Source of the DNA: Elusimicrobiota bacterium
GTDB lineage: Bacteria > Elusimicrobiota > Elusimicrobia > UBA1565 > UBA9628
NCBI GenBank assembly: GCA_026388095.1
Contig: JAPLKL010000013.1
Coordinates: 4,164-67,714 of the forward strand
DNA length: 63,551 nt
Direction: 5' to 3'
Each line of letters starts with the position of its first letter. The first letter of the stretch is position 1. The position numbers and the translations under genes are program-made. Of this stretch, positions 22,062 to 25,185 are shown piece by piece. The notes under the pieces were generated by a model, which saw nothing but the letters and a program-made list of their open reading frames with translations, did not search any database and had not been told where the DNA came from.

Positions 22062-23624
22062 ATGAGCGAGACCAAGAGGCCCAAGCACCAGCACCCGCCC
22101 ACGGGCAAGCTCGAGGAGATGCGGGCGCGGGCGCAGAGCGCCCGGGCCGGGGGCGGTCCCGAGGCCGCGGCGCGCCAGCACGCCGCCGGCAAGCTCACGG
22201 CGCGCGAAAGGCTCGACCTCCTCCTCGACGAGGACAGCTTCGAGGAGACCGACCTCCTGGTCCACGGACGGGAGGGGGGGAGATTCGCCGGCGACGGGGT
22301 CGTGGCCGGGTTCGGCCGCGTGGCCGGCCGGCCCCTGTGCGTCTATGCCCACGACTACACGGTGTGGAGCGGGACCATGGGCCAGGCCCAGTCCCGCAAG
22401 ATCTGCAAGGTGCTTGACCTGGCCTTCGAGTCCGGCATCCCGGTGGTGGCCCTGTGCGACTCGGCTGGCGCTCGCCTCGAGGAAGGGGTGGATTCGCTGG
22501 GCGGCTACGGGGAGATATTCCAGCGGCATGTGGCCGCCTCCGGCTACGTGCCCCAGATCACCGCCATCCTCGGGCCCTGCGCGGGCGGGGCGGTCTACGC
22601 CCCGGCGCTGACCGACTTCGTCTTCATGGTGGACGGCACCAGCCACATGTACCTGACCGCGCCGGAGCTGGTGGCCGGGATCGGAGGGGAGGCCTGCGAC
22701 CCCGAGTCGCTCGGGGGGGCGCACCTGCACAGCAGCCGTTCGGGGGTCTGCCATTTCCTGGCCCGCTCCGAGCCGGACTGCTTCCGCCAGATGCGCGAAC
22801 TCCTGGACTACCTGCCGCAGAACTGGCGCGAGCGCGCCAAGCCCGTCATGCCTTCCGACGACCCTCGGCGCACCAGCGAGGTCCTGGGCGCGGTCGCCGA
22901 TATGGATACGAAGAAACCCTATCGGATCCATGAGGTCATCTGGGAGATCGCCGACGGCCATCAATTCCTGGAGGTCCACAAGGAGTTCGCGCGCAACATC
23001 GTGACGGGCTTCGTCCGGCTCAACGGCGAGAGCGTGGGGGTCGTGGCCAACAATCCCGCCTATCTATCCGGGGCGCTCGACATCAGCGCCAGCGAGAAGG
23101 CCGCCCGGTTCGTGCGCTTCTGCGATTGCTTCAACATCCCCCTGCTGACCTTGGTCGACGTCCCCGGCTACTGGCCGGGCCTGGAACAGGAGTTCAACGG
23201 GCTCATCCGTAAGGGCGCCAAACTGGTCTACGCCTACTGCCAGGCCAGCGTCCCCAAGGTGACGGTGGTCCTGCGCAAGGCCTACGGCGGGGCCTACGAG
23301 GTGATGGGCTCCAAGCATATCCGCGGGGACGTCAACTTCGCGTGGCCCAGCGCGGAGATCGCGGTGATGGGCCCGGCCCGGGCCGTGGACATCCTCTACG
23401 CGGACCGCCTGCAGGCCTCGGCCGACCGGGAGGCGGACCGCCAGGCGCTCATCGGCGACTACGTGCGGGATTGCGCGTCTCCCTACCAGGCCGCGCGGCA
23501 CGGCTACATCGACGAGGTCATCGACGCGCGCGAGACCCGGCCCAAGGTCATCCGCGCCCTGCAGTTCCTGCGCCACAAGAGGACGGAGCGCATCCCCAAG
23601 AAGCACGGCAACATCCCCTTCTGA
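22062..23624 (+). CDS. Acyl-CoA carboxylase beta subunit (propionyl/methylmalonyl-CoA type carboxyltransferase)
   Basis: 520 residues, full length for PccB/MmdA proteins. Opening GKLTARERLDLLLDEDSFEE and the two crotonase-like carboxyltransferase halves are clear: DSAGARLEEGVDSLGGYGEIF, ITAILGPCAGGAVYAPALTD, then VDVPGYWPGLEQEFNGLIRKGAK, RKAYGGAYEVMGSKH and the end RHKRTERIPKKHGNIPF. It transfers carboxyl from biotin to an acyl-CoA. No biotin carboxylase or BCCP gene is nearby. It starts 1 bp after the HD-GYP gene, and its stop overlaps the next ATG. Confidence 0.92.
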   Translation: MSETKRPKHQHPPTGKLEEMRARAQSARAGGGPEAAARQHAAGKLTARERLDLLLDEDSFEETDLLVHGREGGRFAGDGVVAGFGRVAGRPLCVYAHDYTVWSGTMGQAQSRKICKVLDLAFESGIPVVALCDSAGARLEEGVDSLGGYGEIFQRHVAASGYVPQITAILGPCAGGAVYAPALTDFVFMVDGTSHMYLTAPELVAGIGGEACDPESLGGAHLHSSRSGVCHFLARSEPDCFRQMRELLDYLPQNWRERAKPVMPSDDPRRTSEVLGAVADMDTKKPYRIHEVIWEIADGHQFLEVHKEFARNIVTGFVRLNGESVGVVANNPAYLSGALDISASEKAARFVRFCDCFNIPLLTLVDVPGYWPGLEQEFNGLIRKGAKLVYAYCQASVPKVTVVLRKAYGGAYEVMGSKHIRGDVNFAWPSAEIAVMGPARAVDILYADRLQASADREADRQALIGDYVRDCASPYQAARHGYIDEVIDARETRPKVIRALQFLRHKRTERIPKKHGNIPF

Positions 23625-24415
23625 TGCCCAAGAGAGTGGTCGTCTTGGCCGTAGCACGGGCGCCGGCGCTGCGGCTGGCCGGAGTCGAGGTCACGCTCAT
23701 CGACCCCAGCCGGGCCGACGCCCTGCCGCCCTGTGACGTCCTGGTCCTGCTGGGCGACCCGGCGGCCCAAGGGGGACATGAGGATCTGCTGCGTCGCAAC
23801 GTCGACTGGGTCCGAGCCGCAGCTGCCGCCGCGGCTCGGCGCTGTCCGGGCTGCGCGCTGGTGGTCGCGGTCAGGCCCGTCCATCTCCTGGCCTTGGCCG
23901 CCTTGCGCGCTGCGGGCCTGCCGCGCACTCGCGTCCTGGGGGTGGCGGGACTGACGGACGAGCGGCGCCTGGCTCGCCTCATCGGGGGAGCCCTCGGCGT
24001 GGGATCTTCTGACGTGCGGGCCGCGGTCCTGGGCGGCTGCGGCGAGTCCTTGGTCGCCCTGCCGCGCCTGTGGTCCGTGGGGGGGATCCCGGCCGAGGAG
24101 CTGTTCTCCCGCCAGGACCTCGACCGCCTGGCGGCGGGGGCGTGCACGGCGTCCGCGCCCGAGGAGCTCGTCGGCGCCGCGGCGGAACTGGCCGGGGCGC
24201 TGCTGGACGGCGGCCGGAGGCTGTGCCCCTGTTCGGTCCTTCTGGACGGGGAGTACGGCGTGCAGGGGATATTCCTCACGGTCCCGGTCGTGCTGGGGCC
24301 GGCCGGGCTGGAGCGCATCGTGCAGTTGAATCTCAAGATCGAAGAACGCATGGCATTGCAGAAGGCGGCGGCCGTCGGCCGCGCGTTGCGCGCGAATCTA
24401 GAGGTGGTCCAATGA
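23624..24415 (+). CDS. Malate/lactate-dehydrogenase-fold protein lacking catalytic residues (pseudoenzyme)
   Basis: 263 residues against about 310 for the family. The C-terminal half is plainly malate dehydrogenase: VGGIPAEELF, then RLCPCSVLLDGEYGVQGIF and VPVVLGPAGLERIVQLNL. But the N-terminal Rossmann GxGxxG is absent (MPKRVVVLAVARAPALRLAG). The substrate loop reads GDPAAQGGHEDLLRRN, without both substrate arginines. The normal NP of VTNPVD is RP. The active-site GGHGD is GGCGE (about 137-141), so the catalytic His is Cys. The Asp and Arg of the LDSAR motif survive (LTDERR). It overlaps its neighbours by 1-4 bp and is translated with the carboxylase subunit. Loss of NAD and substrate binding argues for a structural or regulatory role. 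Confidence 0.8.
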   Translation: MPKRVVVLAVARAPALRLAGVEVTLIDPSRADALPPCDVLVLLGDPAAQGGHEDLLRRNVDWVRAAAAAAARRCPGCALVVAVRPVHLLALAALRAAGLPRTRVLGVAGLTDERRLARLIGGALGVGSSDVRAAVLGGCGESLVALPRLWSVGGIPAEELFSRQDLDRLAAGACTASAPEELVGAAAELAGALLDGGRRLCPCSVLLDGEYGVQGIFLTVPVVLGPAGLERIVQLNLKIEERMALQKAAAVGRALRANLEVVQ

Positions 24416-25185
24416 AAAGGCTGGTTCTCTGCGTGTTGGCGATGCTCGCGGCCGCTCCCGTCCGGGCGGACATCTATGACGGGTTCGAGAGGTTCGCGGA
24501 TTCAGGTTCCCTCAAGCCCTTCGCTCGCGACTTGGGCGGCATCCTGGGCTCGGCCACCTTCCACAGCGCCCGGCCTCTGGGGTTCTCCGGCTTCGACGTG
24601 GGCGGGCACGCCGGGGCGCAGTTCTATCCGTCCCGGGGCGACACGATCCTGCGCAACAAGGGGGTGCGGGCTTTCGGCCTGCCCTGGATACAGGCCGAGA
24701 TCGGCATGCCCTACCGCATCGACGGCTTCATCCGCGGCATGAGCTACGAGGGCCTCACCGTCGCCGGAGGCGGCCTGCGCTACGGCCTGCTCAAGACTTC
24801 GGACAAGCCCTGGGCGCCGCAATTGCTGGTCTGCGGCGTGGCCCATGCCGTGGTGTATCAGTCCTTCTCGGCCAGCCACGCCGGGGGTAGCCTGGTCTTC
24901 TCCATGGGCAACTCCGTCTTCAATCCGTATCTGGGCGCGGGCTTGGACCATGTGCGCCTGGTCGTTCGTTCCGCTCCTTTGGCCCCGACCCTCAATGGCA
25001 CCGCCTTCAACACCGTGGAGAGCCGGTTCACCGCCGGCGTCCAGCTGCGGCCGTGGAACTACAGCGTCGCGGGCGCGGGCGAGAGCGTCCGGACGCGGCC
25101 CTTGTCCTTCGTCTACCTCAACGCCGCCTACATCCTGGTCCACGGCCAGAGCGGCGCCGAGGCCGGTCTGGGCATGCGGTTCTGA
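24412..25185 (+). CDS. Secreted beta-rich protein, probable outer-membrane barrel
   Basis: 257 residues. Signal peptide MKRLVLCVLAMLAAAPVRA, cleaved before DIYDGF. The rest alternates hydrophobic and polar residues with many glycines and aromatic residues (GFDVGGHAGAQFYPS, GGLRYGLLKTSDKPW, AGLDHVRLVVRS), ending in SGAEAGLGMRF with a terminal Phe, as barrel proteins do. I do not recognise the family. The ATG overlaps the preceding stop, so it is coupled to the pseudoenzyme gene. Confidence 0.7.
   Translation: MKRLVLCVLAMLAAAPVRADIYDGFERFADSGSLKPFARDLGGILGSATFHSARPLGFSGFDVGGHAGAQFYPSRGDTILRNKGVRAFGLPWIQAEIGMPYRIDGFIRGMSYEGLTVAGGGLRYGLLKTSDKPWAPQLLVCGVAHAVVYQSFSASHAGGSLVFSMGNSVFNPYLGAGLDHVRLVVRSAPLAPTLNGTAFNTVESRFTAGVQLRPWNYSVAGAGESVRTRPLSFVYLNAAYILVHGQSGAEAGLGMRF

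Follow-up and report, generated by a model that had tools for sequence, protein, structure and literature searches.

The analysed window, a stretch of 63,551 nucleotides from an Elusimicrobiota genome (G000; 4.6 Mb, 97.6% complete), contains a gene for a protein related to malate dehydrogenase (MDH), situated between a carboxyltransferase gene and a DUF6588-like gene (Table 1). In a previous sequence-only reading, this frame had been described as intact, as overlapping both neighbours and as linked to an acyl-CoA carboxylase beta gene. All three statements hold: the frame is open over its whole length, it shares 1 base with the upstream gene (TGATG) and 4 bases with the downstream gene (ATGA), and the same upstream neighbour and TGATG overlap accompany every orthologue. 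A long ORF was also detected on the minus strand opposite this gene (23548-24351).

Table 1. Genes and sequence features at the locus (positions in the window).
Feature	Position	Strand	Evidence
Acyl-CoA carboxylase beta/carboxyltransferase subunit (propionyl-CoA carboxylase-like), 520 aa	22062..23624	+	Pfam Carboxyl_trans 540 bits; nearest solved structures are propionyl-CoA carboxylase beta subunits
Carboxyltransferase Glu413, at the PccB D422 specificity position	23298..23300	+	Slot homologues outside the genus all have Asp
TGATG stop/start overlap of carboxyltransferase and putative pseudoenzyme genes	23622..23626	+	Identical in 5/5 genomes
MDH-like putative pseudoenzyme, 263 aa	23624..24415	+	Profile and PDB matches; omega about 0.1
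Residues 47-52, sites of two lost substrate arginines (R84 to A47, R90 to H52)	23762..23779	+	
Residues 84-87, former SNPLD N and D, now R84 and H87	23873..23884	+	
Residues 112-115, kept dyad Asp D112 (4/5) and substrate Arg R115 (5/5)	23957..23968	+	
Residues 126-160 around Cys139, most constrained stretch	23999..24103	+	omega 0.02
Cys139, in place of the catalytic His	24038..24040	+	5/5 orthologues
DUF6588-like protein, conserved downstream neighbour, ATGA overlap	24412..25185	+	Weak Pfam match, E=0.0075

The proposed homology to MDH was borne out by matches of the 263-aa protein to the PDB structure 7aob (E=4.9e-38) and to the NCBIfam model TIGR01763 (E=2.6e-36), although the score with the latter (125.4 bits) lies below the cut-off of 351.85; the MDH encoded at the equivalent slot in G008 reaches 455.9 bits. 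Among Pfam domains, Ldh_1_C passed its cut-off (40.8 bits against 22.6) and Ldh_1_N failed (23.2 against 27). When an AlphaFold2 model (mean pLDDT 62, C-terminal half weak) was submitted to Foldseek, the top matches were MDHs, with TM about 0.5-0.58 and rmsd about 10. The comparison with MDH that had been suggested on the basis of a predicted structure thus supports the general fold, but not the geometry of the pocket.

The roles of the residues for NAD binding, of the substrate arginines and of the catalytic His are well established in the LDH/MDH family. With 23 intact MDHs as reference and residue numbers taken from the intact G008 enzyme, all five orthologues of the protein were found to have lost 38 of the 82 columns that are invariant in MDH, including G11, G14, D33, R84, R90, N122, D125, H177 and the GGAEIV...SAYYAP helix. 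Retained are another 26 columns, many of them glycines or prolines, along with R153, and four orthologues also keep D150. At the NAD site, the disappearance of GxGxxG noted earlier is seen in the five proteins, which lack G11 and G14 together with the acidic D33. Likewise, the two substrate arginines first reported as replaced are lost in all of them (R84 to A and R90 to H in the protein of the window), but a third one, R153, survives as R115 in each. The change of the Asn in the NP(V/L)D motif to Arg was also found (N122 to R in SNPLD), accompanied by that of D125 to His. Regarding the catalytic His-Asp dyad, conversion of GGHGD into GGCGE does remove the His (H177 to Cys139, five of five), whereas the Asp (D150) is retained as D112 in four species, the exception being G004, where it is Gln and the flanking GESL reads AQAP. 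The pocket helix is deleted. A deficit of about 45 residues had been assigned to the N-terminus; its size is correct, as the intact G008 MDH is 46 aa longer, but its location is only partly so, with around 32 aa missing from the Rossmann half and around 12 aa from the C-terminal half (GGAEIVKLLKTGSAYYAP region). As judged from its sequence, the assignment of the protein as an MDH pseudoenzyme that has lost its catalytic equipment is well supported.

Besides that of the window, orthologues were identified in G003 (85% identity), G001 (77%, on two contigs), G006 (66%) and G004 (57%), all belonging to a single Elusimicrobiota genus. Apart from these five, no degenerate form was found among 341 genomes of the phylum (E<=1e-43), the next-best matches being MDHs of G009 and G025, 39-42% identical, in which the His and the NAD motif are kept. 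The upstream carboxylase neighbour, Cys139 and the losses listed above are common to all five orthologues; the His and NAD motif persist only in the intact MDHs that occupy the slot in other genera, which represent the ancestral state. Phylogenetically, the five proteins form a single clade (100/100) with a stem of approximately 2 changes per site, which the tree does not place among the intact MDHs. Because of these long branches the attachment point is unreliable, and the argument on origin is therefore based on synteny and on a C-terminal signature. Neither the pseudoenzyme nor the carboxyltransferase gave a match in G005. In G002, the carboxyltransferase is present without the pseudoenzyme and is followed by a short gap and the DUF6588-like gene; since this species appears to be the first branch of the genus in the carboxyltransferase tree (90/86), it may have lost an intact MDH rather than the pseudoenzyme. 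Several genomes of the genus are incomplete, so that single absences may be gaps and it is the genus-wide pattern that counts.

The earlier proposal that the gene is maintained agrees with codon-model comparisons, in which pairwise dN/dS was 0.05-0.12 wherever dS was usable, far from 1; pairs with saturated dS, namely the majority of those involving G004 and some of those involving G006, are not to be read. The values were 0.106 for G000/G003 (dS 0.82), 0.080 for G000/G001 (dS 1.63) and 0.102 for G003/G001 (dS 1.39), with 2dlnL against omega=1 of 108-124 for these three pairs. The carboxyltransferase is more constrained (omega about 0.02-0.04 in unsaturated pairs). As a frame control, the other two sense frames of G000/G003 gave omega 0.96 and 9.3. 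One antisense frame gave 0.15, without stops in G000 but with 2 stops in the 85% identical G003, in which the antisense ORF is thus not conserved. The lowest omega was found in the stretch surrounding Cys139. Of its 30 residues that do not vary among four species, 19 have undergone synonymous codon changes, which indicates that the constraint acts on the protein. Openness of the frame is weak evidence here, because in a neutral stop-codon simulation at the observed third-position GC content the ORF stayed open with P about 0.27. A scan of viral_contigs for alignment depth returned four loci and was of little use.

These results bear on the idea that the gene is a decaying MDH relic. Displacement of the MDH function in the genus, discussed below, and the absence of the gene from G002 and G005 would fit such decay, but omega of 0.08-0.11 with 2dlnL >100, five species without a stop, and identical losses in all five, as left by one ancestral change followed by conservation, speak against it. 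Considering the dN/dS values together with the frame controls, decay is rejected as very improbable.

In the other genera of the family, the typical slot order (read from loci L051-L056, with coaX and smpB named by inspection) is a pilB-like ATPase, GAF-HD-GYP, B12-binding mutase subunit, MeaB, methylmalonyl-CoA epimerase, carboxyltransferase and intact MDH, beyond which come, often after a coaX-like gene, a DUF6588-like gene and smpB, with variation among genera. In the pseudoenzyme genus, the carboxyltransferase, DUF6588-like and smpB genes are kept, and the pilB-like and GAF-HD-GYP genes mostly so; the slot no longer contains genes for the mutase subunit, MeaB and epimerase, and the pseudoenzyme stands at the MDH position. 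Moreover, the C-terminal signature QLNL..EER..LQK is shared by the pseudoenzyme and the slot MDHs and is missing from the TCA-operon MDHs of G006 and G016, so that descent from a TCA-operon MDH (L047, L087) is disfavoured by both signature and context. The G004 pseudoenzyme, which belongs to the species that diverges first among the five according to the carboxyltransferase tree, begins with VIVVGAG, an intermediate, partly degraded state. Sequence comparison, codon models and synteny together make it very probable that the pseudoenzyme is under selection and was derived in place from the MDH of a methylmalonyl-CoA cluster.

Two further observations concern MDH genes elsewhere in the family. 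In L086, L087 and L088 (G016, G022, genus g11), the slot carboxyltransferase is not followed by an MDH and an intact MDH lies elsewhere (in G016, within a TCA-type gene group); the family thus appears to have seen a second loss of the slot MDH. In another genus, a second MDH/LDH-like gene (L057:9306-10075, G009:C40), adjoining another DUF6588-like gene, is split by an in-frame TAG and is apparently a real pseudogene.

No intact Ldh_1 MDH was found in the members of the genus searched, except in G006, which has a second, intact MDH. On the other hand, Ldh_2 (PF02615), a family non-homologous to Ldh_1 MDH, is present in six of seven genus members (not in G006), versus 2 of 36 other genomes. The nearest solved structures of the Ldh_2 protein are the malate dehydrogenases 3i0p and 1v9n, although no NCBIfam model passes its cut-off, so that malate is its putative substrate. 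We infer that Ldh_2 took over malate oxidation from the slot MDH, and that this displacement would have preceded the loss of MDH function. G000 also carries a malate:quinone oxidoreductase. Methylmalonyl-CoA mutase was not found in G001-G005; G000 and G006 have one elsewhere. As a separate observation, a long frame (G000:C18:43410-45086 and G006:C41; >1100 aa in G000), which matches mutase in two pieces, resembles a fused acyl-CoA mutase, and a second, separate mutase gene exists apart from it. In G007 (genus g2, 99% complete), neither an Ldh_1 MDH nor an Ldh_2 match was found.

That the protein might still be a working dehydrogenase with unusual residues would be in line with its recognisable MDH fold and Foldseek matches, and with most members of the genus having no other Ldh_1 MDH. 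Nevertheless, the protein has neither the NAD motif nor the His for hydride transfer, it lacks the pocket helix as well as two arginines, and Ldh_2 is present instead, which makes this reading scarcely credible; the role of the inactive protein is probably new and other than that of a dehydrogenase.

Several features point to the carboxyltransferase as the partner in such a role. Whereas intact slot MDHs with clear starts begin about 40-75 nt downstream of the carboxyltransferase, the two genes overlap in all five pseudoenzyme loci, and the pseudoenzyme was never seen without the carboxyltransferase (co-occurrence in five of five). In addition, the Asp to Glu change at the specificity position of the carboxyltransferase occurs in all six genus members that encode it, G002 included; since G002 has this Glu carboxyltransferase without the pseudoenzyme, the change probably came before or with the conversion of the MDH, and the pseudoenzyme is not indispensable to the carboxylase. 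Coupling and co-occurrence make joint function with the carboxylase the preferred interpretation, to which we would give an even chance. Against it, overlapping genes are frequent in operons and need not reflect a physical interaction of their products.

Alternatively, the pseudoenzyme may be maintained for a role unrelated to the carboxylase, as a stand-alone sensor of carboxylate, CoA or redox state, or as a scaffold, with the two genes adjacent by ancestry only. Purifying selection is on the protein itself, its gene occupies the place of the ancestral intact MDH, and G002 manages with the carboxyltransferase alone, all of which this alternative accommodates; the tightening of the overlap to TGATG in all five species and the strict co-occurrence of both genes do not favour it, and we regard it as unlikely, though by no means negligible. 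Less probable still is a new NAD-independent activity through Cys139, with Asp112 and Arg115, as might be suggested by the invariance of this Cys in five species within the most constrained stretch and by the retention of R115 in five and D112 in four. Beyond conservation of the Cys, this activity has no positive evidence; the Gln and AQAP of G004, the loss of the pocket helix and of both loop arginines, and neighbours that suggest no known reaction weigh against it.

Returning to the partnership with the carboxylase, the best explanation of the data, to which we attach a probability of about one half, is that gene displacement relieved the MDH of its original task, and that the resulting pseudoenzyme has been retained, without catalytic activity, as a partner of an altered carboxylase or as its regulator. 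The starting point was very probably the functional MDH of a methylmalonyl-CoA gene cluster, standing where the pseudoenzyme now stands. The genus has an Ldh_2-type dehydrogenase, which would have assumed malate oxidation (one species has a second intact MDH instead), and the mutase, MeaB and epimerase genes left the slot. The slot MDH lost NAD binding, substrate arginines, the pocket helix and the catalytic His and became a fixed and selected pseudoenzyme, presumably co-translated with the carboxyltransferase and acting as its non-catalytic subunit or regulator; it may possibly sense a carboxylate by means of R115, which it has kept, and of the remodelled pocket around C139.

Bacterial NAD-dependent MDHs (TIGR01763; LDH-like MDHs 7aob and 1guy) are homologous to the pseudoenzyme over most of its length and occupy the same slot in sister genera; with them it shares structural glycines and prolines and one substrate Arg, but not the NAD motif, the catalytic His, the pocket helix or two of the three substrate arginines. 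The plastidial NAD-MDH keeps its catalytic residues, which the pseudoenzyme described here has lost. Like the pseudoenzyme it has the MDH fold, and it was found in a complex outside central metabolism, together with FtsH12-FtsHi (PMC8042743). Conservation of the fold after loss of catalytic residues is also a feature of other selected pseudoenzymes, such as bacterial pseudokinases (PMC12599244), whose fold is different. Searches of open-access literature returned no described LDH/MDH pseudoenzyme, an absence that is weak evidence.

Selected pseudoenzymes in bacterial central metabolism have been little described. Here, the MDH fold might have given rise to a non-catalytic subunit dedicated to an acyl-CoA carboxylase with an altered specificity residue, whose activity or substrate it would set, or else to a NAD-independent Cys-Asp-Arg enzyme, a proposal we advance tentatively and at somewhat less than even probability. 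With an intact ancestor in the slot of sister genera, an intermediate in G004, a candidate displacing enzyme and an altered specificity residue in the neighbouring enzyme of the same genus, the locus lends itself to testing how gene displacement may free a metabolic enzyme, which is then retained for a non-catalytic job.
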